Shown here in pieces: positions 39,444-64,000 of a DNA stretch of 64,000 bases. The notes under the pieces were generated by a model. That model made no database searches and was not told the origin of the DNA. It was given only the letters and a program-made list of their open reading frames with translations. A program made the position numbers and the translations under genes. The stretch covers positions 372,001-436,000 of the forward strand of contig ML133458.1 in NCBI GenBank assembly GCA_003864495.1, given 5' to 3'. The DNA is from Nemopilema nomurai. Its lineage: Eukaryota; Cnidaria; Scyphozoa; Rhizostomeae; Rhizostomatidae. The first letter of the stretch is position 1. Every line of letters begins with the position of its first letter.

Positions 39444-39694
39444 TTATATTTCACTCTCGCCCATCTCATGATTCGACAGTTTCTGCTTCGACTCATTACG
39501 CTTTCCGAAAGGAGGAGGGTGCACGTGAAATGGGTACTTCCGGGCTAAAAGCCGTTTGTAGCTTGTTTTCATTCGTACGAGTTCAAGGTATTGTGACTGA
39601 TGTTTGACTTGCAAATGATCGACTGTTTCTTGCAGCTTGCTTTCAAACTCCGCGATGCTATGATCAAAGGCTGCAAGTTGCGTAACAAGATCCG
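39444..39694 (-). other. receptor exon 33: cytosolic C-terminal tail
   Basis: Terminal coding exon, entered in phase 1 after an acceptor at 39695-39696. It encodes 83 residues: a helical, heptad-like segment (AEFESKLQETVDHLQVKHQ), a basic run (KTSYKRLLARKY), a proline stretch (HVHPPPFGKR) and a stop at 39446-39444. It follows the last membrane segment and is therefore intracellular. No PDZ-binding end is apparent. Confidence 0.8.
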
Positions 39695-42600
39695 CTGTAA
39701 AAGAAATTTCAGAGGGTTATTTTGGTTCACATTACTGTCAGATAGATTGTAACAGGCGTGTAGACCTTCAGAAAAGATTTGGCAAGAGCTACACTCAGTT
39801 TCATGTCGTTCAAATTAAAGAAATGGTTATGAATGAAGATCACAGTTTGTGGGGGGCAGTTAAGATTTAAGCCTTCTGTAAAACATTCATGTTCAGAAAT
39901 GTTCATAAATTACATAAATTTTCATAAATAACATAAATGTTCATTGTCATGTTATTCGGTGAGACATTGGGAAAGAATAACATCTAGAAAATTAAGATTT
40001 TTTTGTCCAGAAAAATCAACAATTACAAACTGAAAGTCAATTAATCAGAGTATATATTATGTCAAAGAGCCCGTGTTGACATTGTTGCCAATAGTGGCCT
40101 ATGCTCATTCGTGACACGTGACGCCACGTGACATGTGACTGAAGCAAATCATACCAGGCTATACCCACTACTGTTAACGGTTTTCAGCCAGTTCTATCTA
40201 TATTATTATCGAAGGCCCGCCACTAATATGGCTCAGCCTTACTGATCCTGTCCTGTAGAGCGAGTGGCTAGCAATCCTTTACAACTAAATATGGCATCTG
40301 TAAAAGGTAGGGGGTACTCTTCCGTGAGTGAACAGCTATCTACCTGGAGATGATGTGTTGATTGGACGGGGAGAATACCTCGAGGAAAAGCAACGGGTAA
40401 CCACCCTTACCCAATCGTTCCCTACATTTAAATACGTAAATCAAAAGAAGATACCTAAACACACGGCTATATTTATGACACAATCGCCTCAGTGGAAATA
40501 GGTAGGCTAATTCATCAGATGCAACAACTTACCACTTGCAGGATTAACAGCCATCTTCCTTCTTCTAGCTCTGAACATTGATAAAAGTATACCAAGGATC
40601 GAAAAAATCAGCAGGACAATGCTCTCTGTCGCCACCATATCCCAGAACATTTTTGTTGAAGGGTCAAAGAGAAGGGGGACTGCCTCCTCTTTTTTCTTTG
40701 TGGACTGAAATGAACATATGGAACGAAAATCAGGCCTAGCTTCGGTGACCGAGAACGAGTCAGATGGAAGTAAGTATAATGATCATGGTCATCCTGTGGT
40801 CAGATGGGGGCAAGTATAAAGTATCTGTGATCAGATGGGGGCAAGTATAAAGTATCTGGCTTTATGGTACATCTGCAGACACAGAAAATGTAAGGTCAAC
40901 ACCGCCTAGCTATTTCATTGCTTCTCGGACGTGTTTGAAAGCCGATTACTATAATGACAAATAACCACACCCAGTCATGTTAAGATTTGAACATAGTTTG
41001 GATGACATCTGTAGGCTGCATGAGACAGGCATCCAACGTAGGAAAGTCCGTAAAAATAAACAGCATTGAAATTGTTTTGACTTGACGATATTTCAAATTA
41101 TTTCTTCTTGCTTGTTGGAGATTCTTCAATAAGCAATATAAAACATTTGCCTAAAGAGAATGTCTATTGAAATAAGATCTTCCTACGTTTAACATCAATC
41201 AAATCTCACTTATAAATACCACAAACGCTCATGAAAATACACTAAGAATCATGCAGGAAATTATCCTATTGCATTAAAATCGTTCTTTTACCGTTACCTC
41301 TTAATGTTGATCATGCAGTACCTATGAAATAAATCTAACACATTAAAAGCGATAAGCAACTGGAGATCTGATTAAATTTCACTTACATAGAGCTTTTCGG
41401 TCATATTTGTGCGGAAGCTTGATATCTTGTAACTCTGCGATGAGATGTAGCTTCTAAAATCGCTCTCCATTCGTACAAACTCGCGAGATAGGACAACACC
41501 GTACCCTGCTTTGGTGTCAATGAGCTTTGAAACCTTTAGACTCTTTTTCACCAGCTCTTCCGCCAATGCTGCAACCGTGAATGCATCAAGCAAGGCAATT
41601 TCAACCTCTTCGTTCTTCACCGCGTCAAGCACCTCTTCGTATGTCTGGTAACTTCGCTCTGAGTAACATCGTTAATGAAAAGCATTGTCAATATGAATTT
41701 TTTTAATGGAAATAATGGAAATTCTCTGGCACCATTTTCTACAATAACAATGTACATCTTTGACAGGGAAAAAAGGGGAACAAAAAAGAAAAACTTAGTA
41801 CAAAAGCCGTTCTAGAATGAGGAATCAATATCTCGTGTAAGAAGAAAGAATTAAGTGCATTTCAAACTGTGCATTGCATTTCGACTTATTCAACAGATTT
41901 CAAACCTGTAATGCTGTAAATTAGATGAGGATGGAATGTCAGGGCTACTAAACATTTCAGGGACAGTTTTAGAGTTTAAAGTAAGGAAAGGTGTGATGAC
42001 TTCAAATCATATGTCTGACATGCAAAAAGGCATTCCTTCATTAACATAAAAATAAAAACGAAACCCACTCTTGTTTACTTTACTATTTCTTCTGACTCCA
42101 AGAAAGTATTCAAAAGAGTTGTTGACAGCAGCGCACTGTAATTGAGAAATGGGAATATGTTGGTGATAATGTGGCCTATTCTTAGGAATTATGCTCTTTA
42201 CATAAGTGATTAAAATTCAGCTATCAACAACAGATGATGTGTTTATCAAACTTTAGCCTGTTGGTAAAAAGGAAAGCCGATCTTCTTGTCAAATGCCTCA
42301 GGTAAAAGTGAGCAAAAATAAATACAATGTCGACTTTGTACACGACTATAGGTACAACATTCCCAATATAACTCAGTTAATAGTCACTGGTTAGACTGGC
42401 TGCAGCTAGACTAAGGTAGGCTGGTACCACAATGATCCGCTTGCACATAGCTGCATCTTTCCGCTCTACAGCCGGTTCCATACCACGATTAGGTGCATGA
42501 TCACTATGCGAAAAGGTACGTGTTGTCTCGCAACCATATAGAATGGGGAGTGCTTTCTTTCGCAGTTCGAGGCAAAGAAATGCTTCTGTTACAATAGTAT

Positions 42601-45600
42601 GATAGAGTTTACAAAAGCCAAGAGCTGGACGATTTTTATACATTTTGGATCAGGCATTCTGGAACTGTTCAAATAAAAAACCTTAACGCTGATTTTGGGC
42701 AAACCTTACCTGAGCATCATAGAGAGTTACAGCAGGGGGTATCGTCATTGAGGTTACAGAGGAGGTGAGCGCACCGGTAAGGATGCCAGTCAGAACTAGG
42801 CCCGCCAACGTCCATAAAATGGCAACAACTCTACCTTGAACTGTTCTGGGGGTAATGTCACCATACCTGAAGAAAGATGATTCGATTCAACCGTTTAGAA
42901 AGTGCCACTGCTTGTTTGCTTGCTTACATGGAGTGGCAAAAGCTGAGTCAGAGGAAATTACTTCCTTTGTCAGTAAAAGCAAAGACAACAGAAACCAAAA
43001 CTAGTATAGTCAATTTTTGATATATATAAAACTTTCAGATATTCACAATTACGGCAAAAGTCTGGTTGACAACTTAGAATCGAAGAACCGTCCTTAGAAT
43101 CGAACAACAAGCGTATAGGTCTTTGTCTTCACAGAATGGATGTCAGATAGTAAACTTAAAATGTAAAAAATTTGGAAAATGAAATCTTGTATGGCTGGAG
43201 ATTATACAGCAAATGGTCATAGAAGCAGAATAATTCATACCCAACAGTCGTCATGGAAATGAAGGCCCACCAAAATCCTTGCAAGGCTCCATGGATGAAT
43301 CTTTCTTTCGTGAACTCTTCGTTGTCTCCGCGTTCCTTCATTAAAACCAATATAATAGTTTAGGTTCACGTCTCATCGCTGATCTAATCTAAATTATGGC
43401 TTATAATCAATTTGTAATAATTCTTGACCTTCAACCATCAAGAACATCAAGAACATCTTCAGGCGAGAACCGATTTGGCTCAACGAACGGCCAACTGCAA
43501 CGTAATATCAACGTTGATATCGCCAGCAGGTAATCAACACCCCCGTCTCCTAATTAAGCTTACTTTCTATACCGTACATTGCTTAATAACCCTTTATTCA
43601 ATCCACATTAAGAATCTCCCCAAGTTAGGAACATTAAATAACATCCCCATGGTCGCCCTAGTTATGACCGGCTCATCCATTGGCTTCCCGGCACCCCCTT
43701 GTTGGATACTTGAAACAGAAGTCAATAAAACCCACGGTGCAACCCAACTGAGAGTGCAAGAAGAGTATGGCTACATAAATCCCATATTGCTTACCATCAC
43801 CCAAACAATCACTCCCACCAAGAGAGTCATGCAGACAACAAGAAGGTACATCGGCCATAAGTTGGTAATAGACTTCAAAACACTCAAAGTCTTGGCACTG
43901 TAGTCTATTTGGCTCTTAACGATGCTGGCACTTCCAGATGACTTGATGAGCAAAGCGAAAACATTGTTGTCCATATACTTCGTATTGCTGCCGTACCCGA
44001 ATATGGGGAAGGAGAGCTGGTACTCGCTGCCAATGGCCCTTCGCACACCCAGTTCGTTTTTCTTCAGCGAGCTCTCCCCCGACAGACTTTGGTACCAGCT
44101 TATGCGTGATGCAACGCCACTGCATTTGCCACATGAAGTCTTGATCATGTCATTTACGAGATCTGCCATTATACCGGACACTTTACTTCCGGGTTCTTGC
44201 TGGACGTAGGGCGGGTTTGAAAACCAGTTTAAGAAAATGCGCCTCGGACATTTACAAGTAGCTAAAAATAGCACCATATGTTGAGAAAGATTGGTAAGAA
44301 CAGCAAAAATTAGAACATGAGTATTATTTGCAATGGAAGAAGCACCAAATTAAGCGCTTGCTAAAGTGACTGGTAATGCTGATTGCATCTTCAAAGATTC
44401 TGGAAATAAGATATCAGGCTGCCAATAAGATGCTACATAGTTAGGCTGTTCACAAGTTCTTTCAACTGAATAACGGAAATAGCGGTAGCTTTGTGCTGCT
44501 ATGTTTCCAGAACTCTGTAAGCTAAGCCTCGTTCGCAATAAACCTCGCTTTCAGCTTGACAAGAGAAAAATAGTTAAGATTAGTAATGATAAACAGTTCC
44601 ACTCCAAGGAGCCATAAGGATGCAATATCGGCACTACGCATCTAGCAATCCAACCCTCGTTTGAATACAAGAGGGCATTTATGTGAATATGACAAATGCA
44701 ACAAATTCAACGTACTTTCAGGGATAGCCTCGCTGTAAGGCCCATCACCAGCTGAGGTATAACCGGCCACGCTGACGGAATACGTTGTGTAGCTCTGCAA
44801 GCGGTCTATTTTGTATCGAAATGTAAACTTATCCAGTTCGACTACTTTGGTTATTGGTGCTCCGACGAACAACTCGTTCGAAATGCGAGTGATCGTGTAC
44901 TTCAGCTTGTACCCAAGCAGAATACCATTTAGTAGGTCGTCAGGAATCTTGTTCCATGTGAACACCAATGATGCGATGGATGTTTCGTCACGCTGCGATG
45001 CAAATTTAGGCGGTGGAACAGCAGGGACTAGAACGATAGGCCCGATTTCGATTAGAATCGAACTAAGTCAAGAAAATGCGAATCAATGCATGTAGGATTC
45101 ATCAACATGAAAATAGCTTAGACCGAACGAACGAAAGTAATCACGTTGCAAATCAAGAAACAGAGACCGTACGTACGTACCTCCCTCCGGTGTCTTCAGG
45201 ATGATTGAGGCTGGAGGTCCATAGCCTGCCCCTGAAAACGCCAGTAGATCAAAGTCATACAAAGTGAATGGCTTCAGGTCATCAACCACTGTTTCTGTGC
45301 TGATCTTGGTGACATGTTTTTCCTCGTAAGCGGTATCAAAGTACTTTTTGTATCGTATGGCATATCCAAGCGGCCTTCCGTTAAAATCCGCGTCTGTTAT
45401 TCCAAGCCATGTGAGATAGATTTGGGACGGGGAAATGTCTCTGCCGGTGAAATTCTTCGGCGAGATTTTTGGCACTAGAAAGGAGTTATAGAAATTCGTT
45501 AAAACGAAGAACTGCTAAATCCTTTGAAAGTAAAGTAAAGATCAGTTTAAAATTTACCAAGGTATAATGAGAATTATTCGACACATAAGCCGCAAAGATA

Positions 45601-48600
45601 CCTTTATAGATGAATACAATCTAAATGGACCTGTGACAAATCCTTTGAGAAAATAATAGAACCAATGTAACGCGAAGCAATATTTAGAAGCAAACCTCCT
45701 TCTAACGTGCTGTTTATTGCTTCATTAGAGGCAGGCCCGTTGCCAGTCGTAACCGCCAAAGTCATTCTGAACCGATACTTTGTGACTGGCTTCAAGTCCC
45801 GCAAAGTGAACGATGTACTGTTCAACTGAGGTACGCCCTGAACGTTCCAACTCCCAACCGTGCTACTGTACTCCCGGTAGAAAATGTAGTAGCCGTACGT
45901 GTCATTCAACAAGTGGTAATTGTCAGGGGGTGCCCATGTTAAAAGCATGGTCCTTTCACTGTAAGACACAGCTGATACGTTTTCAGGTGGATTGACAACA
46001 ACTGCAAGTAAGAAGGATTCCGTTGATTAGACGCCCGTCCTTTAAATAGCTATTATTAGGTCTATATGTGTTTAAGTATTAAATACCCATTATTGGGTGT
46101 ATTCACCTAAGATGCATTTCCTTGCTGCGCTTAACAGTTGCTGCTTTCGAAATGGCATCGTCGATAAATTGATTTATCTAAATATGGTTTCATCATGTAG
46201 AAAATCAAGCCTATTTAAGATTACAGCAGAAAATTCCAAAACGAAATGGTTGTCCTTATTATCTCTTCTCAGCAATTGTACCACCAGCTCTAGCATAAAT
46301 GCCGAATATCCGCCTATTTAGTTTATTTCAAAGAACCAATTACGTAATATAGCCTAAAGCGTAACCTCAAAGATCAAAGGTCAATAGGTGAAAGTATCAA
46401 CCTGTCAGTATAAAAATGAAACAATATATTTTTAATATAATTTATTGAAGTTCTTTACCTTTCAAGGGTGTCACCACTTGTACAACCGTTGACAAATTGT
46501 ACAATTTGCCAGTTGTGTCAACAAAATCTTGAAGTAGCAAAACTTCACCCTGGCTCGCCTGTGCGTAGTACACTGTGAAGTTAGCAATGACGCTGCCTCT
46601 CCTAGTAGAGAAAGAAAACAATTACAACTGTATCTTTTAGGTCAGCTTTGAGTGGTGAATATCTCCTAAGCACTAGCTTTTTCAATGGTGTGAAAATGAG
46701 TATTGAAAACATTTAAGTTTCCTGTTGAACTTAGAAATATATAAAGAATGCCCTGTAATCTAACATCGTTCAGTGCGAATCTCACTAGAATATAGCTAAA
46801 TATTTGTAGAACCAGATCTGGAATCAAATGATTTAGGCTGCATTTACACCGGACCGGACCATACCCGAATAGGTACGGGTAAGCCTTTCGTTAACAGGGG
46901 AAATGATGGAACAGTTCCAAACAGAACCATCAGCCGTACCCAAACGGGTCCATCTAGAAAGTAGGTACCGTATAGAACCGTAATGAAAAGTTCTCGTGTG
47001 GACAACCAGAACGGTCCTCGCCAGTGAAGCTTATAAACGAGGCAAGAGGAAATTCGACTGGAGGCAATTCGCCATGTGTGAATGGAAAAAAAGACATAGC
47101 TCTGCACAGTATGGTTCCACAGACATCGTGTAAACGCAGCCTTATTTCTAAAGATTTAATGCTCCCAATAACACCTTAACAGTCTTTAGGCTGAAAACTA
47201 AACATTCTGTTCCTGCAATGACCTTAATAAAATAATTGCTTGTATGAAACATTTATACTCACTTAAAATTTATGATTTTGATGTGACTCAAAACAGAAGA
47301 GTAATTATAGACAGCTTTGACCTGCAATTCAGACAAAATTCTCTCAAACAAATCAATTAGATTTAGGGAGTCAAGCAGCAAGATTTAAGTATGCGACAAT
47401 GCAATTTTAACTCCTACGATACCTTTGAAACTAAAGACAAGAATCTCTTAAAAAGAGGCAAATGTTTAAAATTGAAAATAACATTGAAAACTTGTAAAAC
47501 ATTTGTCATAACATTTTTAATAACATTTGTAAAAACATTGAAAATATAATAGTCAACGGGAATTAAATAAAAAAGCTATTAAACACTAGCGACTCTTCAT
47601 AGTTTCAGGTAATGCATAAGTAAGACCATCAAAAGTAAAAAACCAAAGAACACAATAGAACCATTTAACAACAAAATCAAAGATTAATATAAGCTAGCGA
47701 CAATTTTACTCACACTTTCAATGACTTGCTGGCTAAGCTCAACTGTTTTCGGGTGGGTCTCATACACCAGCTTAAAGTCCCATACAAAGTCGACCAGCTT
47801 AACAGTAAACAGAACCGAAACGTCTGAAATACAATTAGAAGTGCGTTCAAAGCCAACAAGATACGGCTACATTGAAAATTATACCCTTGTCTTACTCTGA
47901 TGCAACATTGTTATGGATGTGGAATCTTCAAGCTTCTTTGCTTATTAGTGTTTGGCAAAGGTATGCGAGGATTGAAGTTGGATAGGCCTTGAGAGGATTT
48001 AAGATGGGAGGATTGAAGTTGGATAGGCCTTGAGAGGATTGAAGATGGGAGATTGAAGTTGGATAGGCCTTGAGAGGATTGAAGATGGGAGGATTGAAGT
48101 TGGATAGGCCTTGAGAGGATTTAAGATGGGAGGATTGAAGTTGGATAGGCCTTGAGAGGATTGAAGATGGGAGGATTGAAGTTGGATAGGCCTTGAGAGG
48201 ATTTAAGATGGGAGGATTGAATTGGATAGGCCTTGAGAGGATTTAAGATGGGAGGATTGAATTGGATAGGCCTTGAGAGGATTGAAGATGGGAGGATTGA
48301 ATTGGATAGGCCTTGAGAGGATTGAAGATGGGAGGATTGAAGTTGGATAGGCCTTGAGAGGATTGAAGATGGGAGGATTGAATTTGGATAGGCCTTGAGA
48401 GGATTTAAGATGGGAGAATTGAATTTGGATAGGCCTTGAGAGGATTGAAGATGGGAGGATTGAATTTGGATAGGCCTTGAGAGGATTGAAGATGGGAGAT
48501 TGAATTGGATAGGCCTTGAGAGGATTGAAGATGGGAGGATTGAAGTTGGATAGGCCTTGAGAGGATTTAAGATGGGAGGATTGAATTGGATAGGCCTTGA

Positions 48601-51600
48601 GAGGATTTAAGATGGGAGGATTGAAGTTGGATAGGCCTTGAGAGGATTGAAGATGGAGGATTGAATTTGGATAGGCCTTGAGAGGATTGAAGATGGGAGG
48701 ATTGAAGTTGGATAGGCCTTGAGAGGATTGAAGATGGGAGGATTGAAGTCGGATAGGCCTTGAGAGGATTGAAGATGGGAGGATTGAATTTGGATAGGCC
48801 TTGAGAGGATTTAAGATGGGAGAATTGAATTTGGATAGGCCTTGAGAGGATTGAAGATGGGAGGATTGAAGTTGGATAGGCCTTGAGAGGATTGAAGATG
48901 GGAGGATTGAATTTGGATAGGCCTTGAGAGGATTGAAGATGGGAGGATTGAAGTTGGATAGGCCTTGAGAGGATTGAAGATGGGAGGATTGAAGTCGGAT
49001 AGGCCTTGAGAGGATTTAAGATGGAGGATTGAAGTTGGATAGGCCTTGAGAGGATTGAAGATGGGAGGATTGAAGTTGGATAGGCCTTGAGAGGATTTAA
49101 GATGGGAGGATTGAAGTTGGATAGGCCTTGAGAGGATTGAAGATGGGAGGATTGAAGTTGGATAGGCACTGTGTGTTCTGAAAATAGTGGAAGTGAAAAT
49201 GCACCTCGGAATAGGTTCAAAAGATCCCTAAAGACCTAGAATATTCTGAAAAAATTGCATGATAAATATTCTTCTGATGACAGAGTGTTGAAGGAGTGTT
49301 TATGGAGAATCCATAAAAATCTGGGACCTAGGGCTCAGTATTATAACGTGGGGGGAGTAAACTTTCGTCTTTGTTCTTCTTTCGTCACAGAAGGTAAATG
49401 AGAGCTCGAAACTTTGGTTACGGGAAAGAACCCAAATTTTCATTGGAACTAACTAGCTTTTGGAGAGTTTAGAGACTAAAGTTCCGAGAGAAACTAAAGC
49501 AGGGGTATGATACGGGTGTTCGAACGGTGTAAAGAACGAAATTTCAGTTCCTTGGGCTGTCAGTTTGGTGTGCCCTGCATTGCATTCCTCCTCTGCCGCG
49601 AGGTTCATCGGTTTATTAGTATAGACTCTAAAACAAAATCATCACATTCATTGGAATTGTTCAACTAACCTGAGCATGCATGCAGGTTACAAGGTTGGGA
49701 TTCGACACTTGGACCTTCGCAATATTTTCCCTCGTACTTCGGCGAAGGGTTTTCACAATATCGCTTGCGCAGCAATTTTCCTCCTCCGCAGGGCTGATCA
49801 CAGAGCTGCCAGTCACTCCACGATGTCCAACCGCCATGAACTGCAAAGGATAATACTCCCTATCACTGTCAAAAACAACGATAATGAATACCGCTTGCAT
49901 ACCAATATTCAATCTTGTTACTAGGTTCGATATGTCAAGTGTTGTAAAGTTATCCACATCAAACTGTCTGGAGAATCAGATGTCTATTTTAGCTACAAAT
50001 TCGAAATAATCAGAAAATCATACATATCTTCTAGACAATTCAAAATCATCCTTCGTAATGCAGTCATTGATCCTTATACCATTAGGTAAATCTTGGTTGA
50101 ATGTTGGATAATTTAATAGGGTGGATTCTATATCTTATCATGCGACGGCTATTTGCAAGGCCCAGGCTTGCTCTAGTGGGCTCAGCCTCCTTATGAAGAT
50201 TGCAAGAGATTTCACTTTTTAGCATTCCCCTGCTGCCTTTTAAGAGAAAGCCGCTCTTGCTAAGAAAGCTGCAACTCAACCCAAACAAAATTGCAACGGG
50301 ACATACCTGGACACTTTTGGACATTACACTCGGGAATGTAATCGACCGCTGACCCATAACAGTCTTTGCCATTGTGATTCACAGCAGGGTTGTCGCATTT
50401 TCGATAGCGATGTTGGTAGCCATACCCGCACGTCTTGTTGCAAGGGGTCACCTCGGACCAAGCTCCCCAGTTGCCATCAACTTCACCACAAAAAAGCAAA
50501 ACTGATGATGAACGTTGGGACAAGGGAACCAAAACCCAGCAGTGATAAACATTGATCAAAGAAAGGAGATTTTAACATTAAAAAAGGCTCAAGTCTATCG
50601 CACTGGAATTAAATAGAACATTCCAGGTCAGATCTGGGAAGTTGCAGTTAAAAGAAAACTATTGGCAATGTCCTAAATTGGTATTCATAATGCCAGGTTA
50701 GTGAATACATTACCGGGACAGGGCTTGGTATTGCATTCGAATGATTGCACGTTGACTCCGGACTCGCAAATGCTCATAGAACAAGTTCGCCTTCTGTTCT
50801 GGATTCCTCCTCCACAGAATTCCTTTGAGCAAAGGCTCCACGGCGCCCACTCATCACAACCACAATCAACTGCAAAATGGTAGACGCTATTCTTAACACA
50901 CTTGTCTTGGAATCTTGACAATTTATCAGGTTGAAAAATAAAAAAGCTAGAATAGAGAAGAACCGAGGAGATTTAGTTGTGAATGGAAAGTGAATGTAAG
51001 TGGTTTAAGTTTTGCATCTGTAAATAGATAGTTTTGCATCGGTATTAAACTTACGACGATAGAACTCATTCACTTCTGGTTACTTCGACAGTGAGCCGAG
51101 AGGGGGACTTTTACATATTGTTCTGCATAGCACCTAGCATCTCATTAAGACTTAATAACAAACAAATCTCAGCTAAGATGACGTCACAAAAGTAATCCTG
51201 CCCCAGGCTGTAACAGAGCTCATTGTGAGCTCGCATTGTTTATGAAATTTTACCCATACGAAACAATGCACCAGAAGTAAAGGTTCAAGAAAGCAGAGTT
51301 TCGTTACCAGGACTGAGACAGTTGCACAACCGGATCGTCTTTCCATCGCCTGGAGGTGGCTCTTTGCAGTTGACTTCCTGAGGAACACGTTGGAAGCCTT
51401 GGCAGCTTTTGGAGTCCTTGACGTAGCTTGGGTGAAACTGTTCCTTGTAGGTGGGGTTGGTCGTGGAGTCTAGACATTGGTAGTCAAGATCTTCGTAGAT
51501 CTTTGTTTTGTTTGACAAGCTGAAGACGGGGTTACAGTACATTCTATAATTCTTGCAGGCCTGTACGCAGCTCTCACCGAGATTGCCAAACAAAGGTCCT

Positions 51601-54600: not shown

Positions 54601-57600
54601 ATGAGTACAACATCGGTCATTAGCGTCTTTTACCAACTGGCATGGACTCTGTTGTGACAATAGCAATCGTTTTCCACAAGCAAATTGAAATTCAGCACTC
54701 ATTTTAATGACAAGAGCACTGTTTGGCTTGCGCAGCCTTGAAGCGCTGATATTTAGATTTGTTTCAAAAATTAGAAACTTGAAACAGGAGAAACAAGTCT
54801 AGAGAATGGTACCTCCTCTTTTTAAAAAATTATCGCGCAATAAATAGGAGTTGTAAAAGCAGCTTCTACAAGCTCTTATGAAATTTTATGAAAACTTCGA
54901 TGAAACTTATGAAAAAGGCAGCAAAACTTACCATCCTGCAATGTTTTTACTTGCTGAGATGGTGATTTTGGTCCATCCCCAATAGAGGTATAGGCCAAGG
55001 CTTGTAGAGCATACAAAGTGAACTCTTTGAGGTCATTGATGACCCCTTCAGTGACAGTTTCGTCTTCTCGTTTGAAGTCGGCAGTCATATTTTGACCTAT
55101 CGTCTCGCCTAACACATTTATCTCCTGGTAAAACACACGATAGCCTCTGATGATGCCATTAATAACGTCTGCAGAGGGAACTTCCAGTTTAACACGGATA
55201 CTTTGACTGGACTTGGCCGATACGTTGAACACGGCAGGTGGACCATTAGGCTCTGAGGATGACAAAAATATAAATATTTTGCAATGATAAAAAACAGTTA
55301 GCATTGCATAAGAAAGGTTTGACTTGAGTACTATTTCTAGGCTAAAGCAGGAGGCTATAGCAATAAAGTAGGGTGGTGTTTCCAAATTTACGGTTTTGAC
55401 GGTAAGAGGCTTGGAATGGTGGCAAAGGAGAATCTTGGGGAATGAGACTCTTGTTAAAACATATCAAAATTGTAGCTGGCTTTGAAAAAGACATTGAAAA
55501 CTCCTAACTATAACCCTACACCACGAACGAGATTTATTGAAAATGATGCAAGCATAATGCGAGTTCATACCATCCTCTGCCGTGTATTCGCATGTTTTAT
55601 TCGAAGTTGGTCCACGACCTTTTGCGTTAACAGCTTGCACGAAGACGCAGTACTTCTGATACTTCTTCAATCCTGAAATCTCTGATGTGGTGCTCGTGGA
55701 ATTCTTGTAATATTTACTTGTTACATTCGATGCTGGATCAAAAAAGGGCCAACAGGACGAGTGGTTGAAACACTCACTACCCGTCAGGTCGCGTTCTAAC
55801 GAGATGAAGATATTATAAGGAAACAAAACGCCATGTGAACAGTGAAGCTCTAGCTTATTCCACGCCAATGTCATTGCTGTCGAGGAGGCATTGTGGAATA
55901 CGGTGATGTTAGGTGGGCACGTGGGCGCATGCTCGTCAGTCGTAACATATAGCGGGTCGTTGTACGGTCCGCACCCCTTTACCGTGCACGCGGCAGATTG
56001 AATACTGTAGTTGGTCCAGAACCGTAGATCGTAGACTGAGTAGCTGATGACATCTGACGTTCTCCTGAGCTCCGTATGATTACTGCTGCAGTTGCGGGCA
56101 GTAAGGCGTGATTGGTACCTAGCACTGTCCAAACCACGGTCGTAGCAGGCCGAGGAAGCATTCACGGAGCAGTTTATTTGCAGACAGCGATGTGGCAATA
56201 TGTCAGCTCGATAATACACTGTTTCATTTGTATCCAAGATCATTGCCGATATGTTATAGTAGATGATTTCTCCATTCTCGCTGTTCAGGTATAGGCAGCC
56301 AGTCGTGTAATTCAGCGATGAGAAATCGACTCCTGTGATGTTGGCAATCCGCGGGGAAGCGTTTGGTACTAGAAGAAGCAGAACAGTGTCAAAGGCTACA
56401 ATTAAACCTGTTTATTTTTAAGCTTAATAATTCCAACAGTAATCACCCTATACCACATGGATATTATGCAGCTTTTATTGTCTTTGCTTTTATGATATTG
56501 TGGCTAGCTACAAGAAGCTGCTTCATTATGGTTTATTATAAAGGTGAGGCAAATTATAACTTTCAACGAACAAGAGAATACACAACGATCACAAATGTTT
56601 TCAAACGTAAAGTTTCAATATCAATTCTCCCCAGATGACCTCATAAACCCTAAAGAAAGTCCAATTGAAAAAGCAAGATGTAATAGAGACACGCTTGAAC
56701 TTCATGTTAACATACCATCTTGATCTGTCCGTACGCAGAAACTAGAGAAGACCCCCGCGCGGGACTCGACATTGCCGGCAATCGAGATCTTATACTCCCT
56801 TGCAGCTTCCAAAGGGCCAATGAGTAAGCTGGTTGCGTTCGGTGCTACCACCACCCGAGTAGCCATATAGGGTTGGAAAACCGCTGGAACGCTATACTCC
56901 TGGTACTCTACAGTGTAATTCGACAAATACCAGCCGTTCAAGAGCTCAATGTCTGTTGTTAGTGGTGACCAAGTTGCAAAGAGATGTGAACTGTTCACCA
57001 CGCTGATATTGAAATCTGGAGTGTATACTTCGGGTTCTATAACAGAGAGAAATAAAGCTTTTACGTGGTATCATGCTTTCGATCGAGCATGGCTGGGAGT
57101 ACAAAATCAGCATTAAAATGACTAAAAACTTCTAGGGCTAGCACCATACTTGCTATTGGATTAAACAAATGAACAGCTTGATGTATCAATGTGCAAAGAT
57201 TCAAGGAGCAAGGCATGAAATTCTGATAGTTTTAACTTCAAACATAGGTTGTGCATATAGATTCAAGGGTCAAGGAGCACTAGGCATGTTAAAAAATTCT
57301 GATAGTTTTAACTTCAATTTCTATATCCTTTTCGGTTGCATATACTCATAAACGCATATATCTGTAATTCAAACAAGGGTTGTGCAAAGATTCAAGGGAG
57401 CGCTAGGCATGTTAAAAAATTCTGATAGTTTTAACTTGAATTTCTATATCCTTTTCGGTTGCATATACTCATAAACGCATATATCTGTAATTCAAACAAG
57501 GGTTGTGCAAAGATTCAAGGGAGCACTAGGCATGTTAAAAAATTCTGATAGTTTTAACTTGAATTTCTATATCCTTTTCGGTTGCATATACTCATAAACG

Positions 57601-60600
57601 CATATATCTGTAATTCAAACAAGGGTTGTGCAAAGATTCAAGGGAGCACTAGGCATGTTAAAAAATTCTGATAGTTTTAACTTGAATTTCTATATCCTTT
57701 TCGGTTGCATATACTCATAAACGCATATATCTGTAATTCAAACAAGGGTTGTGCAAAGATTCAAGGGAGCACTAGGCATGTTAAAAAATTCTGATAGTTT
57801 TAACTTGAATTTCTATATCCTTTTCGGTTGCATATACTCATAAACGCATATATCTGTAATTCAAACAAGGGTTGTGCAAAGATTAAAGGAGCACTAGGCA
57901 TGTTAAAAAATTCTGATAGTTTTAACTTGAATTTCTATATCCTTTTCGGTTGCATATACTCATAAACGCATATATCTGTAATTCAAACAAGGGTTGTGCA
58001 AATATTCAAGGGAGCTAGGCATGTTAAAAAATTCTGATAGTTTTAACTTGAATTTCTATATCCTTTTCGGTTGCATATACTCATAAACGCATATATCTGT
58101 AATTCAAACAAGGGTTGTGCAAATATTCAAGGGAGCGCTAGGCATGTTAAAAAATTCTGATAGTTTTAACTTAATTTCTATATCCTTTTCGGTTGCATAT
58201 ACTCATAAACGCATGTATCTGTAATTCAAACAAGGGTTGTGCAAAGATTCAAGGGAGCACTAGGCATGTTAAAAAATTCTGATAGTTTTAACTTGAATTT
58301 CTATATCCTTTTCGGTTGCATATACTCATAAACGCATATATCTGTAATTCAAACAAGGGTGTGTGCAAAGATTCAAGGGAGCACTAGGCATGTTAAAAAA
58401 TTCTGATAGTTTTAACTTGAATTTCTATATCCTTTTCGGTTGCATATACTCATAAACGCATATATCTGTAATTCAAACAAGGGTTGTGCAAAGATTCAAG
58501 GGAGCACTAGGCATGTTAAAAATTCTGATATTTTAACTTGAATTTCTATATCCTTTTCGGTTGCATATACTCATAAACGCATATATCTGTAATTCAAACA
58601 AGGGTTGTGCAAAGATTCAAGGGAGCACTAGGCATGTTAAAAAATTCTGATAGTTTTAACTTGAATTTCTATATCCTTTTCGGTTGCATATACTCATAAA
58701 CGCATATATCTGTAATTCAAACAAGGGTTGTGCAAAGATTCAAGGGAGCACTAGGCATGTTAAAAAATTCTGATAGTTTTAACTTGAATTTCTATATCCT
58801 TTTCGGTTGCATATACTTATAAACGCATATATCTGTAATTCAAACAAGGGTTGTGCAAAGATTCAAGGGAGCACTAGGCATGTTAAAAAATTCTGATAGT
58901 TTTAACTTGAATTTCTATATCCTTTTCGGTTGCATATACTCATAAACGCATATATCTGTAATTCAAACAAGGGTTGTGCAAATATTCAAGGGAGCACTAG
59001 GCATGTTAAAAAATTCTGATAGTTTTAACTTGAATTTCTATATCCTTTTCGGTTGCATATACTCATAAACGCATATATCTGTAATTCAAACAAGGGTTGT
59101 GCAAAGATTCAAGGGAGCGCTAGGCATGTTAAAAAATTCTGATAGTTTTAACTTGAATTTCTATATCCTTTTCGGTTGCATATACTCATAAACGCATATA
59201 TCTGTAATTCAAACAAGGGTTGTGCAAAGATTAAAGGGAGCACTAGGCATGTTAAAAAATTCTGATAGTTTTAACTTGAATTTCTATATCCTTTTCGGTT
59301 GCATATACTCATAAACGCATATATCTCAAACACTTTTTCAGACAAAACCTCCTTACTATGCAAATGTACTAGAGAATTTCTAAGCATCTGCCATCGAGTA
59401 ACTTCAGTACAAAATGAGCATTTAACTATTGCATGCATCCAAATTCTGTCGTTCTCCAACGTTTTTGAATATTGGGTCATTTTCCTACGTTCTCTCCTCA
59501 ACGTTGTCTTGTCAAATCCTTATTGTGTTTAAACAAGCAACTAAGAGAGTAATTAACATCTGTTGGGAGAGCAACAAAGATCAACCTATCAATGAATCAA
59601 AGCCAACCTACATACCTCCTTGATTGGTTCTCCAAAATATTTGCGCCAGTGGTCCGATTCCTTTGCTGTTGTACGCACCGATTATTAGGGAATAGTTTGT
59701 AAAGACTTCAAGTCCTGGTAAGATTTGAAGGGCACTGAGATCACTGCTATTTGTCTCAAAGTTGACGTATGCCGGATGAGTGAGCTCAACATCTGTAAGG
59801 TTCCTCAAATCCACTTCTGAATCCATTTTCAACAACGACTGGTAATAGACTCTGTATCCGAGTAGAAAGCCATTACAGTTAACTGAATTTATTTCCGTTA
59901 TGTTGAGACTAACGTTGTGCCTGTTGCTAGTCACCACAGCAATTGAAGGTGCTGCATCTGGTACTAGGAGAGAAGACGTAATTGTCAAAATATGCTTCCA
60001 ATGCAACCAGCCTGGCCCAAACTTCCCAGCAAATAAGAGAGCATGTTTTATGATACCGGACTTCACAACTGCGAGAAACAACAGAAACAACATTTGGCAT
60101 ACTTAAGTACTCTTTCATCTGAGACTCCTCGGGGTTTGCTGACGTCCGAAAATAACCAAAAGCTAATAAATCCGTGGCTGGTAAATATTCTATCATCTTT
60201 TGGTCGTTTTCAGACGATTGCATACTCTGGAGGGGGAAGAAACTTGACCGACGTAACCTCGCAGGCATCTCCAGTCAGCTAATACTATTTGTATTTGTTA
60301 ATGTATTTATGTTAATGTCATTTGTTATTCATTAGACACTCCTAAACATCTAGATACATAGTTTCTTGTGCACGCGCATTAAATACTTACTCTCTTCGTC
60401 AGTCTGAAATTCTACTGTGAACGCATTCCCAACACCTTGGAGGTACAACTGTTGTATGTGACATGTATAGTTGAAACTGGGCAGCAGATCTCTTATGACG
60501 AACTGGTTTCCCTCTCTTAACTGCACAATCTTGTAAAATATGCGTGAATTGGCAGCAATCTTTGAGACTCCGATAACCGAGACGTTGAAACCAGCCGGTG

Positions 60601-63600
60601 CTGCAAATGTTGCTTTTTTCAAGGGATGACTTCGGATTGTGGCCGTCCGTCCAGTGACATTAAGAACCACAGCCATTTGGGGCGTAAACATTACTGTAGA
60701 TGAAACCGAAAAAGCTCTGCATTTGAGTAGTGGAATAAAAGCATTCGCAGAAAGTAGCAACAGCTTAAAGAGGTCACTTAGGTTAAAGAGGTTAAACGCC
60801 CATGTGTTGTTCGAGAAATACTGCCAAGCCTAGAGAATCTTCTCTGGGGTGTAAAGCCATGATAAACATCAAGTTGACTTTGGATGTGGTTAGACCAGGG
60901 GCTAACAATATTGGTACATAACATGATCGGGAAGTTTTTATCGGTCGGAAAGTTTTCCACCGTGCATAAGCCTACTTCTAGTTTCTCTCGACTGAAAAAG
61001 TGAAAAAACTTCAAAATGAATAATAGATAGCGAGGAAAGGAAGCCAAAAGTCTCACCACCAACAGCATTTTGTGCTGTGGTCAATGTGCACGAGATTCCT
61101 CCGCAGTCTGTTACTTCGCCACTGAATACTTTTGGAAACAGCAACCCCCTGATTTCTTCATCAACGTTGGCAAAGAACAGGCGGGCTCCGACTTTGAAAT
61201 GGCATTTCTTCATTAAATCTACGTCACATTCATCCTTTCTGAAGAAAAAGATGTGATAAATTAAGCGACAAAATAATGACATGTGATAAATTAAGCGTAC
61301 CTCGTGTATTGATTTATCAATTAATTAAAGGCACGTCGCTTGCACGACATCACCAATAGTTTCACTGGCTTCACGTGATAGCAGCGAAATCTAGGATTTT
61401 CTGTTTTGTAAAGGAAATAATTGAACTTACTCGATACTCTTGCATTGAAATCTTCGATAATTAACATTGCCAGCCAGACGCTGTGCCATCTAACAAAAGG
61501 GAAACATTCTCATCAGAAATCATCTATGCTGTTTTAGCACACCTCAACGCAAGGGAGGCCTAAAACTCATGATGATATGGCAAAAAGGTGTTAACTTGTC
61601 ATTATCATTTAAAACTATCGATAAAAATTGGCAAGCTCTCACTTCTAGGCGCAGCCTTTCACAGAAGAAAGCAAACTCTATGCTGGCAATCTTTGACATT
61701 TCATCATTCCATTTGGGAAAACGAAGATGGAACACGGCGAAGATGTCGACGTTTACATCCATTGAATCTGGAAAAAGTAGCAAATCACGTTATTTTCATG
61801 ACTTCTTATGTATTTTCTCTTTTACCTTACTACGCATTTTACACTTCCATGCCACGACATCATAGTGTATAAAACACTGCAAACAATAATGTATCTGACT
61901 TTCGACAGAGGAAAGGTGTAACTGTGGCAAAAGTCACTCGAATGTACCAATTACCTGCACTGGTGCTATTCCACGTCAAGAAATGATTTGGAATGTTCTT
62001 GATCGGGCTTACTAAAGAAAACAAGAACGACAAAGTTTTGAGCGTATGAAAATGGACAGAGAAGTAGCAAAAAGAACTCTTTTTGTCTTCGTGAAGAATT
62101 TTCCTTCGATCCTAATTAATATACAATACACAAAACAAACAATGGAAAAAACACTTGGATTTTGTGCAAAATTTAATTCACAAACAGCAAGCATTGCTTT
62201 CGCTCCATGACAAATACCTGCAAATGTTTTGTGTATTCTGAACCCTCTCTCCTTCGCATCCGTCTCTCTTTCTCCCTATCTCCTCTCCCTTATCCATACC
62301 TCTCTCTTCCTGTCTTTTCTTTGACCTCATTTTTCCTTACTCTCTCCATTCGCTTTTTTTCAAACCTCCACAATTGCAAGAAACAGCGGAACTTCTACAT
62401 ACATAAAGTACTTGTTCGTCCAAAAATCCTCTGTGTACGCAAACGTCGGAAATTGACCAAAAACTGTCAAAATAAATAGGCAGATCTGCAACTGGTTCCG
62501 CTGTTTCTCGCAATTGTGATTGATGCCATAAAACATTCGTTCGCTTTTTCAATCCCTTCCTTCTTTCTTCGTTCATTTCGCTCTGTCCTTGCTCTGCTCA
62601 CCCTTCTTCATCTTCTAAAAGCAGTGCACCAGTTGAACATATAAGTTACATTCATACATTTGTGCTACCAAGATAATCTTTATCCAGACTAGGATAATCT
62701 TTACCTAGCTATATTGGTAGCATGACCTCGTATTTTCATGGTAAAGAGATTTAAGAGTAGGACTGAAAGTCAAGATAAGCTTGCCTGTGATAAAATCAAA
62801 TTCTGCACAGTCATTGCCATAAGCGTCGTCCTTGATAAAATCACTGGAGCCGATCTTTGCGCATGATGTGCTTGTTTTCGATGTTGTTATTCGACCATCT
62901 TTTTCAAGTCGAATCTTGCTCTCTAGATCACAAGAATTGTCCACTGTCGTCTCACTGTTAGTGAATTTTAGAAATTGATCCAGGGTAGGTTTACGGAAAC
63001 AGCCTTGCTTGGAACGGAAAAGCAGATTCAGACAGCGGCTTTGAGACGTGACTTTGAATTCTGGGTCAGCCATATAGAGACACTTCGTATCGTCAGCACC
63101 GCCTGGCCTCGTTATCAGAAATGGCTGATCTATGAAAAGTAAGAAGACAATTAACAGGTGGGCGATCAGGACGCTAAATAAAGAGACGCAGCATGCTGAA
63201 TATCGCAAATTCAACCAACTTAGCACTTTAAGGAATGGTCGGTAAACATTATCGACTTTCAGCTGATGCGTAACTTGACTTCATAAAGTAACTACAAAAT
63301 AAAAAATTCAAGGAAAATTTGTGGTAGGAAATATTACACATGGATAGCACGTGGAGGGATCTCATAATAGTTGCAAAAACAAGCTCCGCTATTTCTTGCC
63401 ATTGTGAAGTTTTGTACCGCCAAGCACTTGTTCAAATATCATAATGCTAAAACAGTTAACATTTACAATATAAAACTGTAAGATAAGTTATAAATTGCAA
63501 GAGTTGAAATTCTGTCTAAAAATTCACCCATTTTGAAACACCACACCCCACTCCTAATCATCAGGGTACGCCCCTAAATACAAAATGCCTCAACTTATAT

Positions 63601-64000
63601 GATATGTGATATATATAAAATGTATTTATATAAGGTGCAAATGGCTTCCTAGCTCGATCAAAGCTATTCCATTGAAAACTGATCACAATATAAAAGACAG
63701 AAATGAACTTAAAGGCATCAAGACCTCAGTTATTCAACAACTGTTCAAGTCCAGATATATGCTTTCAATTGATCACTGACCGTGCAAATGCTGATAATCA
63801 ATTTCCCCATTGATCTTGACTCCAGCTACCAATCCATTCAGTACCACAAGGTTGGTGAAGGAATCGCTGTAGTTTTGTCCTGATTTTACTGTCCCCCATC
63901 TGTTAGATTTCAATTTCAGTACTTCTTTCGTTTCTTTATCAATTGCAAACGGCGGCCAGTAATTGCCGGTCGCAATTGCGGATATTTTTTTGTCAGCTAG
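39444..64000 (-). CDS. FN3/TSP1/SEA receptor fused to a K+-type glutamate-receptor-like channel (5' partial)
   Basis: One gene of at least 33 exons, about 2613 codons in the window, running off the right edge. Domain order: unknown N-terminal part; about nine FN3; TSP1, Cys-rich exon, three TSP1; SEA; three FN3; split ligand-binding domain with a channel whose filter is TTVGYGD; cytosolic tail. It is a predicted cell-surface membrane protein. Every proposed joint is in phase, almost all ectodomain exons are phase 1-1, and every donor is GT except one GC donor at 62784-62783. The FN3-to-channel joint (44716 to 44261) is phase 1 with consensus sites on both sides and no start codon or signal peptide in front of the channel, so I read it as one gene. 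Two adjacent genes remain the alternative. The entries below give the exons block by block. I know of no named gene with this architecture. Confidence 0.8.
40533..40704 (-). other. receptor exon 32: end of ligand-binding lobe and last membrane segment
   Basis: Encodes FDPSTKMFWDM, the last transmembrane helix (VATESIVLLIFSILGILLSM) and a basic stop-transfer run (RARRRKM). This corresponds to M4 of eukaryotic glutamate receptors, which bacterial GluR0 lacks. The exon is phase 0 in, phase 1 out. Confidence 0.85.
40757..40862. repeat. 32-bp direct duplication plus partial third copy
   Basis: The phrase gtcagatgggggcaagtata occurs around 40799 and, as gatcagatgggggcaagtat, around 40830, each followed by aagtatctg. 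A diverged copy lies near 40759. It sits in the intron just upstream (in transcript sense) of exon 32. Confidence 0.8.
41387..42135 (-). other. receptor exons 30-31: S2 half of the ligand-binding domain
   Basis: Exon 30 is 42135 to 42084 (or 42079) and exon 31 is 41658 (or 41656) to 41387. They encode VNNSFEYFLGVRRN, then EVEIALLDAFTVAALAEELV and the typical GYGVVLSREF segment. This is the pattern of lobe S2 of glutamate receptors, with Asp in LLDAFT at the place of the usual acidic ligand contact. Two donor and two acceptor choices keep the frame in matched pairs. Confidence 0.75.
42710..43335 (-). other. receptor exons 28-29: potassium-type pore and M3
   Basis: Exon 28 (43335-43241) encodes ERGDNEEFTKERFI followed by FWWAFISMTTVG. 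Exon 29 (42866-42710) continues YGDITPRTVQGRVVAILWTL and a hydrophobic helix ending LTGALTSSVTSM. The joined filter T-T-V-G-Y-G-D is the hallmark of K+ channels and differs from glutamate-receptor pore loops. The intron splits the codon of the first filter Gly (GG|G). The helix after the pore takes the place of M3. Confidence 0.88.
43795..44261 (-). other. receptor exon 27: S1 half of the ligand-binding domain and first membrane segment
   Basis: Entered in phase 1 directly from the last FN3 exon. It encodes NPPYVQQ at the start of lobe S1, GIMADLVNDMI, SEYQLSFPIFGYG (equivalent of the family DFSKPF region), FALLIKSSGSASIV, and the first transmembrane helix (LWPMYLLVVCMTLLVGVIVW). The family motif with Pro-Leu-Thr and a ligand-binding Arg is not clearly present, so the ligand is uncertain. 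Confidence 0.8.
44716..46001 (-). other. receptor exons 24-26: three membrane-proximal FN3 domains
   Basis: Exons 46001-45696, 45474-45181 and 45027-44716, each one FN3 domain and each phase 1-1. Typical FN3 features: MLLTWAPPDN with YYIFYREY and LRDLKPVTKYRFRM; IYLTWLGI with LGYAIRYKKY and LKPFTLYDFDL; FTWNKIPDD with GYKLKYTI and LQSYTTYSVSVAGY. They lie between the SEA domain and the channel. Confidence 0.88.
46459..47823 (-). other. receptor exons 21-23: SEA domain
   Basis: Exons 47823-47714, 47321-47263 and 46601-46459 together encode about 104 residues beginning VSVLFTVKLVDFVWDF and containing FKRGSVIANFTVYYA across the exon 22/23 joint. The G-S-V followed by alternating hydrophobic residues is the SEA pattern, and G/S is where cleaving SEA domains self-cut. 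Entry phase 1, exit phase 1, so it is a shufflable unit made of three exons. Confidence 0.75.
46836..47141. mobile_element. Harbinger-like MITE with TTA target duplication
   Basis: The left terminus ggctgcatttacac and the right terminus, reverse complemented, ggctgcgtttacac are inverted 14-bp repeats with one difference. Both are flanked directly by TTA, a 3-bp target duplication as made by PIF/Harbinger transposases. It is 306 bp, has no transposase, and lies in the intron between SEA exons 22 and 23. Confidence 0.75.
47968..49167. repeat. 41-bp minisatellite, about 29 copies
   Basis: Tandem array of a unit reading ttggataggccttgagagga followed by ttgaagatgggaggattgaag; about 1.2 kb, with units differing by single bases and 1-2 bp indels. 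The word aggattgaag occurs twice in each unit. It fills most of the intron between receptor exons 20 and 21. It creates a long open frame on the minus strand (48567-49220) that is not a gene. Confidence 0.97.
49670..52035 (-). other. receptor exons 16-20: four TSP1 repeats and a cysteine-rich domain
   Basis: Exons 52035-51865 (GNWTTWGRWGFCSRSCGNGT), 51598-51308 (cysteine-rich, not TSP1), 50869-50714 (DEWAPWSLCSKEFCGGG), 50480-50307 (GNWGAWSEVTPCNKTCGYG) and 49840-49670 (GGWTSWSDWQLCDQPCGGG). The WxxW and CxxxCGxG patterns and the terminal Cys pair show type 1 thrombospondin repeats. All exons are phase 1-1. The Cys-rich exon has GESCVQACKNYRMYC and ends with LCNCLSP; I do not recognise its family. 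Confidence 0.9.
52528..54520 (-). other. receptor exons 12-15: three FN3 domains
   Basis: Exons 54520-54341 and 53891-53646 each carry half of one FN3 domain (APSAPPRNLTVGNV, then LLSYTYYNISIATCTVIGCG). Exons 53466-53110 (LNVTWRELPIMERQGIITGY; LDPFTWYRCEVCAKTSVGYG) and 52854-52528 (GIILGYVVFYQ; LKSNYTYKIAAFTSKGIG) hold one domain each. All are phase 1-1, including the two half-domain exons. N-glycosylation sequons are frequent. Confidence 0.85.
54932..57036 (-). other. receptor exons 9-11: four FN3 domains
   Basis: Exons 57036-56716 (SHLFATWSPLTTDIELLNGW), 56368-55571 (798 nt, two FN3 units: FWTNYSIQSAACTVKGCGPY and MTLAWNKLELHC with KYCVFVQAVNAKGRGP) and 55252-54932 (IIRGYRVFYQEINVLGE; FTLYALQALAYTSIGDGP). 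Phase 1-1 throughout. The large exon lacks an intron between its two domains and is rich in cysteine and in N-x-S/T sites. Confidence 0.85.
57180..59328. repeat. 123-bp minisatellite, about 17 copies
   Basis: Tandem array with a regular 123-bp period: the word tctgtaattc recurs at 57361, 57484, 57607, 57730 and so on. Units are nearly identical, with single-base and 1-4 bp differences; the first unit is diverged. Each holds an inverted pair gttaaaa...ttttaac. It lies in the intron between receptor exons 8 and 9 and leaves only about 290 bp of non-repeat sequence before exon 8. Confidence 0.97.
59616..60693 (-). other. receptor exons 7-8: two FN3 domains
   Basis: Exons 60693-60391 (FTPQMAVVLNVTGRTATI; LLPSFNYTCHIQQLYLQGVG) and 59963-59616 (VPDAAPSIAVVTSNRHNVSL; GFLLGYRVYYQSLL; VFTNYSLIIGAYNSKGIGP). 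Both are phase 1-1 and end in the usual short acidic linker. The first is the most divergent of the series and lacks the typical FN3 Trp, so it is FN3-like only. Confidence 0.75.
61057..64000 (-). other. receptor exons 1-6: unrecognised N-terminal part (5' incomplete)
   Basis: Exons: 64000-63781 (open at the window edge), 63129-62785, 62011-61955, 61767-61643, 61489-61431, 61238-61057. They are in phase, but the exon 2 donor is GC (CAG|GCAAGC). Peptide landmarks: WPPFAIDKETKEV, DTKCLYMADPEF, SRCLNLLFRSKQGCF, DVDLMKKCHFKVGARLFFAN, TDCGGISCTLTTAQNAVG. Several paired cysteines point to an extracellular fold. I do not recognise any domain. The signal peptide must lie beyond the window. Confidence 0.65.

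Follow-up and report, generated by a model that had tools for sequence, protein, structure and literature searches.

Does a locus of the scyphozoan Nemopilema nomurai encode one receptor in which a giant adhesive ectodomain is fused to a potassium channel of the ionotropic glutamate receptor (iGluR) type and, if so, what might such a receptor do? The window analysed here is a stretch of 64,000 nucleotides (contig ML133458.1 of GenBank assembly GCA_003864495.1, positions 372,001 to 436,000 of the forward strand), and the gene in question occupies its minus strand from the far edge down to a stop at 39444. An initial annotation, made from the letters of the window, had joined 33 exons in phase, leading from FN3, TSP1 and SEA exons into a split ligand-binding domain (LBD) with a K+-type pore, and had proposed a distinct class of fused receptor. 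At the level of predicted sequence, our analysis establishes the architecture: a module order within one gene (judged from homologues), a K+ signature, the absence of the agonist-arginine motif, cleavage motifs and a large gene family. How such a receptor would work is a matter of graded probability, to which we return below.

The case for a single gene comes from homologues. A search at three query lengths, each of which bounds the length of its candidates, gave 70, 6 and 12 rows, corresponding to 87 different proteins. Five homologues of 3949-4987 amino acids (aa) contain both the adhesion modules and the channel: P0071 and P0072 from EukProt, P0073 from Rhopilema esculentum (Scyphozoa), and P0074 and P0075 from Dendronephthya gigantea (Octocorallia). 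The high-scoring segment pairs (HSPs) found by tblastn all fall on the strand of the gene (57 against 0 on the opposite strand for P0071, 49/0 for P0072 and 51/0 for P0073) and form collinear chains of 39, 24 and 25 HSPs, respectively, the P0071 chain amounting to 3162 bits, far above chance. Another homologue, P0077, is an uninterrupted open reading frame (ORF) of 894 aa on a 4678-base contig, which aligns to model residues 3246-4141, from SEA through the tail, and spans the positions of 12 introns of this gene; the contig looks like a cDNA contig. In P0078, too, a single ORF holds FN3 together with the channel; P0002 includes the end of an FN3 by alignment, without a Pfam call.

An unconstrained ab initio run nevertheless spoke against the fusion. 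It split the window part into six short genes, ending one at 45604 and beginning the next at 44169, as expected if an FN3/TSP1 adhesion protein and a channel were two adjoining genes joined in error, and a single chain was obtained only when the programme was forced to one gene. Because the free run broke the stretch up, the joining of the two parts rests on the homologues and not on ab initio scores. Two genes would, however, require one shared error in the models of all five giant homologues, P0077, P0078 and P0002; in the exon of the S1 half of the LBD, no start that would open a signal peptide was seen by eye; and same-strand FN3 matches lie upstream of at least 23 of 24 paralogous S1 loci (below). 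We therefore reject the two-gene model as very improbable, despite the ab initio split, and read the locus as one predicted fused receptor gene. The fusion put forward in the initial annotation thus stands; the opposite expectation, that FN3 part and channel are always separate genes in orthologues, is contradicted by the five homologues, and the Rhopilema and Dendronephthya proteins are the examples from other cnidarians that it had proposed to look for.

The gene model was built with a splice-site and codon dynamic programme and then curated by hand, the C-terminal exons being placed manually. It reproduces the 33 in-phase exons on one strand (64003-63781 through 39694-39444, a single open frame to the stop) in a check that was not blind, since the stop position was adopted from the initial annotation. 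Two exon boundaries were corrected with respect to that annotation: the small S2 exon and the one following it (Table 1) were chosen against P0071. Beyond the window the whole model has 52 exons and 51 introns (51/51 GT-AG) and encodes 4145 aa, with an extracellular chain of more than 3.6 thousand aa. The exon number and length are approximate because homologous stretches found by comparison with P0071 (82914-82651, 82201-82088, 68042-67866 and about 65370-65171) are absent from the model. Homology to P0071 reaches about 82.9 kb (window numbering), so that the gene starts beyond the window, and no signal peptide was located in the 5' part of the model, which is incomplete. Phase-1 introns make up 24/32 within the window and 38/51 over the whole model, an excess that this gene has in common with shuffled modules. 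The FN3/TSP1/SEA order described earlier holds, but the upstream part, encoding LamG_3, fn2 and MAM modules (Pfam), had been overlooked; the search of the joined protein that the annotation had called for returned fn3, TSP_1, Lig_chan and Ion_trans_2, but not SEA.

The channel part has the pore sequence FWWAFISMTTVGYGD, with a K+-type pore helix and a TTVGYGD filter, which predicts a K+-selective pore. The sole transmembrane-like segments in the model are M1, M3 and M4, giving the S1-M1-pore-M3-S2-M4 topology of the iGluR superfamily. Structure models of two homologues have the iGluR fold in the channel part (Foldseek), and the top structural matches of the homologue LBD are amino-acid-binding periplasmic proteins; with an FN3-bearing model as the query all 50 listed rows were FN3-type chains, and an FN3-less member was folded and searched instead. 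The pore sequence alone has its best matches among TOK and voltage-gated K+ (Kv) chains. An origin from a Kv channel was rejected, as the homologue models show an iGluR fold over the entire channel part. It is also disfavoured by an intron that interrupts the codon of the first filter glycine (window 43241/42866): the 5' half of the split filter was read in loci L051, L017 and L034, and the 3' half in L016, L031 and L037, together with further 3' halves, whereas four Kv-like loci (L035, L036, L039 and L040) have an unsplit filter. Present in the family loci read and missing from those four, the filter-glycine intron is a usable marker of descent.

The ligand site differs from that of a canonical glutamate receptor. 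By eye, this protein lacks the agonist-arginine motif (SFPIFGYGSNTKYM). Among proteins with enough S1 to test, the motif occurs in 1/34 family members, where the match is incidental, and in 20/23 bacterial relatives, two of the three misses still displaying Arg. In the clade of FN3-bearing proteins the S1 loop has become FP[IV]FG. The acidic residue of S2 that would bind the amino group is apparently kept (IALLDAF, matched with bacterial ..YDAP). No LIVBP-like amino-terminal domain was found: with a cut-off of E 0.01, neither five pieces that together span the model minus about 120 residues nor the one piece scanned of the missing 5' stretches gave an ANF_receptor or related match. These features bear on whether this is an ordinary ligand-gated K+ channel, opened through its clamshell LBD by a free small molecule as in GluR0 or AvGluR1, with an ectodomain that merely anchors or localises it. 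The complete LBD fold of the homologue models with its periplasmic likeness, the conserved acidic residue and the existence of minimal relatives like P0014 from Nematostella, made up of leader, LBD, pore and M4, would all fit such a channel. The motif that fixes the agonist backbone is, however, absent in 33/34 testable members and the S1 loop is changed, and we regard ordinary ligand gating as unlikely, though not negligible.

Between the TSP1 exons and the last three FN3 modules stands an SEA-like module. In the family PF01390 was matched in 5/9 members, this protein not among them; a profile comparison matched the SEA of ADGRF1 (E 0.0019), and Mucin-1, with only E 1.2-1.6, ranked behind an unrelated chain (E 0.32). 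The last SEA exon carries a candidate cleavage site, KRGSVIANF. The loop GS[VI][IV][VA] is found in this gene, P0071, P0074, P0075, P0077, P0078 and P0080, as well as in the paralogues L051 and L052; further SEA-exon matches in the genome lie on C122, C84 and at C24:1341313, the loop having been read in L051 and L052 only. P0080 (Stylophora), with its channel in mid-protein, is seemingly a scrambled or merged prediction and was used for FN3/SEA content only, and P0002 stops short of the SEA module and lies outside the motif comparison. As described in the available part of PMC6954182, SEA domains are cut in this loop by autoproteolysis or furin, the halves remaining associated until force parts them, and GSVVV and GSIVA are autoproteolytic motifs. 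In P0072 and P0073, GS is replaced at the same alignment column by a furin-like polybasic insert (SKRTRR and SKRKRR, respectively), an apparent swap of the cleavage mechanism at a conserved place. A cleavage site preserved by two means suggests that the cut, itself predicted from motifs, matters for function; this is the strongest hint to that effect, and still a hint.

We consider it slightly more probable than an even chance that the product of the locus, a single giant receptor of an expanded cnidarian family, is a cleaved adhesion receptor in which engagement or shedding controls the flow of K+. Its extracellular chain (LamG, FN2, MAM, FN3 array, TSP1 array, SEA and three FN3) would bind matrix, adjacent cells or other surfaces. 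Of its modules, SEA would be cut at maturation; here the cut at GSV would be autocatalytic, and in Rhopilema and its close relative a furin-type protease would make it. The two halves would stay together without a covalent bond. The half next to the membrane (half of SEA, three FN3 and the clamshell LBD) would sit on a pore with a K+ filter, presumably tetrameric. Engagement or shedding would be the most likely input: when the outer half is engaged, pulled or lost, strain on the LBD and the M3 gate would shift, and the K+ current would be altered. Contact would then dampen the excitability of the cell, or raise it in the case of a channel that is normally open.

Several observations weigh against this account. 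The model has gaps towards its N-terminus (82-60 kb). Pfam does not call SEA in this protein, the P0077 model is of low confidence across SEA (pLDDT of about 35-65), and P0079 has FN3 but neither GS nor a furin-like motif. The Foldseek TM-scores are modest (0.33-0.46 by query). The conserved acidic residue, together with a Lys or Arg that, in the FN3-bearing clade, is no more than about two positions away from where the arginine is expected, makes amino-acid binding possible. Finally, no adhesion module was called in Nematostella P0014 or Clytia P0013, and so the channel does not need one.

How widespread is this architecture? A channel query against the same genome gave 90 six-frame matches among those listed, from which we took 24 S1-type (one per locus) and 30 pore-type matches judged not Kv, and set them against the 150 best FN3 matches and 26 TSP1 matches chosen by eye from 150. 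Same-strand FN3 lies upstream of at least 23/24 S1 loci within 12 kb and of at least 26/30 pore loci within 15 kb. In contrast, only 1/49 control Lig_chan matches had one of these best 150 FN3 matches within 15 kb; 3/49 of these overlap the K+-type pore list, including the sole positive, and the remaining 46 had none. At the lone S1 locus without FN3 (C122:1957915), an FN3-part query matches 1.3 and 2.3 kb upstream. Conversely, at least 76 of the best 150 FN3 matches lie within 15 kb upstream of such channels. The entered TSP1 matches, for which there is no control, lie within 25 kb upstream at 11 or more of the 24 S1 loci. Loci of FN3 plus K+-type channel form arrays on contigs C60 (789516-965157) and C73 (38112-333835), with no TSP1 nearby among the matches listed; identical scores among several of these matches make recent duplication likely. 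Elsewhere in the genome, 17 Lig_chan matches at G000:C19:6228506-6373930, several with equal scores and with open frames of at least 152 aa, are apparently a separate, recent expansion of iGluR-type genes.

The locus arrays on C60 and C73 resemble recognition repertoires, and ectodomains are highly diverse among relatives: the same K+ channel core occurs with CUB and Ig in P0001 (Hydractinia) and with EGF plus TNF-like and EGF plus C1q-like modules in P0081 and P0082. The product could accordingly be a recognition or adhesion molecule, for self/non-self or prey contact, with the channel as a vestigial membrane anchor. Yet the channel is the best-conserved part, with 54% identity to P0071 against 41% over the long alignment that includes it, 51% in one LamG block and 29-30% in two other N-terminal blocks (the nearest named homologue, from Rhopilema, has 43% over the channel), and the filter pattern is present in 38/38 family members, a figure subject to ascertainment. 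A vestigial channel therefore seems improbable.

A maximum-likelihood tree of 43 channel regions (this gene, 34 of 38 family members and 8 of 24 of the bacterial type; supports, given as SH-aLRT/UFBoot, were assigned by split) unites the FN3-bearing proteins in one clade (98.3/99), together with Acropora P0003, an entry lacking the N-terminus. Within it this gene clusters with P0071 and P0077 (91.5/98), and all five, with P0072 and P0073, group at 100/100. Outside the FN3 clade, the EGF-C1q form joins the EGF-TNF form (99.8/100); for the Ig-CUB form P0001, a sister position shared with two short proteins lacks support (40.8/22). The tree suggests that FN3 was fused once, before octocorals, stony corals and medusozoans diverged, and that ectodomains were gained separately elsewhere. 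More tentatively, and at less than an even chance, these genes may be a cnidarian superfamily of adhesion-gated K+ channels that kept the iGluR fold, lost amino-acid sensing and came under contact or force control via the cleaved SEA module, which different lineages would keep cleavable by two separate means, and with the ectodomain exchanged repeatedly (FN3/TSP1, Ig-CUB, EGF-C1q/TNF). With respect to the initial annotation, the K+-type pore on an iGluR scaffold is borne out by the filter, the Ion_trans_2 score (Table 1) and the fold of the homologue models, and the distinct class by a well-supported clade and many loci in this genome. The split LBD was also seen correctly, and the SEA exons rest on the homologues; what had been missed was the lack of the arginine motif, the cleavage site and how large the family is.

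Neither K+-type iGluRs nor cleavable adhesion receptors are new in themselves. According to the accessible portions of PMC12226733 and PMC12332018, K+-type glutamate receptors otherwise comprise the bacterial form and one rotifer receptor called highly atypical. The cnidarian family of K+-type iGluRs with adhesion modules is apparently undescribed. No work on cnidarian K+-type iGluRs was among the matches listed in open-access PubMed Central (PMC), a source that leaves subscription literature mostly uncovered, so an earlier description is possible; nor were the combined architecture, the missing arginine motif or the family size found among those matches. Two papers on iGluR evolution, in the portions of text available, contain neither 'fibronectin' nor 'GYG' (PMC12226733) and neither 'potassium' nor 'fibronectin' (PMC6307864). 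The family consists of multiple genes for K+-type iGluRs in Cnidaria, the sister group of Bilateria, with the channel on giant adhesion chains and without the canonical amino-acid anchor, and it may link what a cell touches to the flow of potassium. If the ectodomain gates the pore, this would be a new route from contact to electrical inhibition or excitation, and would extend to ion channels the principle of cleaved adhesion receptors known from adhesion G protein-coupled receptors (GPCRs) and Notch. It would also be a natural instance of the pore-plus-sensor modularity proposed for iGluR evolution in the part of PMC12332018 consulted.

Table 1. Features of the receptor gene in the window, from the 5' to the 3' end of the gene (window numbering)
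Feature	Region	Exons	Strand	Basis
No confident module call, between LamG part and FN3 array	60391..64000	64003-63781 (3 bases past window), 63129-62956, 62011-61955, 61767-61643, 61489-61431, 61238-61057, 60693-60391	-	gene model; one 41% block against P0071
FN3 array	52528..59957	59957-59616, 57036-56716, 56368-55571, 55252-54932, 54520-54341, 53891-53646, 53466-53110, 52842-52528	-	Pfam fn3 E 1e-41 (piece ending 53110), 4 stretches individually significant; tblastn collinearity
Four TSP1 exons	49670..52035	52035-51865, 50869-50714, 50480-50307, 49840-49670	-	TSP_1 E 1.3e-37, 4 stretches
Cys-rich exon among TSP1 exons		51598-51308	-	weak likeness to Glyco_transf_18 C-terminal part
SEA-like module	46459..47823	47823-47714, 47321-47263, 46601-46459	-	homologue alignment, ADGRF1 profile match
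Three membrane-proximal FN3 exons		46001-45696, 45474-45181, 45027-44716	-	Pfam fn3, 3 stretches (piece 52842 to 44716)
S1 half of LBD and M1	43795..44261		-	54-56% identity to P0071
M1-pore linker, pore helix, filter start (..FWWAFISMTTVG)	43241..43335		-	
Filter remainder (YGDITPRT) and M3 helix	42710..42866		-	Ion_trans_2 58.6 bits, Lig_chan 43.0 bits (channel piece)
S2 first exon (CAAVNNSFEYFLGVRRNSKVNK)	42069..42135		-	boundary fixed against P0071
S2 second exon, conserved acidic residue (IALLDAF)	41387..41658		-	
M4 membrane helix exon	40533..40704		-	transmembrane-like segment; post-S2 helix in both homologue models
Cytoplasmic tail and stop	39444..39694		-	helical in P0077 model

The three membrane-proximal FN3 exons are kept in P0071, P0073 and P0077. 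The Cys-rich exon has counterparts in P0071 and P0073, and P0075 receives the same weak Glyco_transf_18 call from Pfam. Two introns contain tandem arrays, one at 47963-49167 (about 30 copies of a 41-base unit) and one at 57270-59326 (about 17 copies of a 123-base unit). The next gene upstream, also on the minus strand (L009-L012, at about 98.6-82.6 kb by window numbering), has a protein-kinase domain and may be PERK-like, and downstream of the receptor gene a one-exon ORF of 237 aa on the minus strand (36444-35731) encodes a GNAT-type acetyltransferase.

The receptor can be set beside several known systems. Animal iGluRs (AKDF, NMDA, Epsilon and Lambda) have the same LBD and membrane fold, but they carry a Q/R/N-site pore and a LIVBP-like amino-terminal domain in place of the K+ filter and the FN3/TSP1/SEA chain, and the arginine motif is absent here. 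The polycystin-1 family also combines a giant modular ectodomain, a cleavable module and a channel-like membrane part, though that part is TRP-like and the modules are others, the likeness being one of design. Notch and MUC1 are single-pass proteins and channel-less, unlike this receptor. Their cut SEA-fold module, as the part of PMC6954182 consulted describes, is thought to part under force, and the SEA-bearing adhesion GPCRs ADGRF1 and GPR126 share with our receptor a long modular ectodomain with an SEA or SEA-like module, which in those GPCRs is or can be cut in its loop by autoproteolysis or furin and here carries a candidate site; their membrane part has seven helices where an ion channel is predicted here. 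GluR0-type bacterial K+ glutamate receptors (PF00497-bearing proteins, some named bacterial) are the only other proteins with LBD and pore among the matches listed, and share the LBD split around a TTVGYGD pore. Most, however, are about 350-390 aa long, they largely retain the arginine motif, and the two sequences read (P0026 and P0044) have neither M4 nor an adhesion module. AvGluR1 of the rotifer Adineta vaga, an animal iGluR architecture with a K+ signature, was named together with GluR0 in the initial annotation, in agreement with the available parts of PMC12226733 and PMC12332018; compared by that description, in which an adhesion ectodomain is unmentioned, it differs from the cnidarian receptor in being activated by amino acids (PMC12226733).

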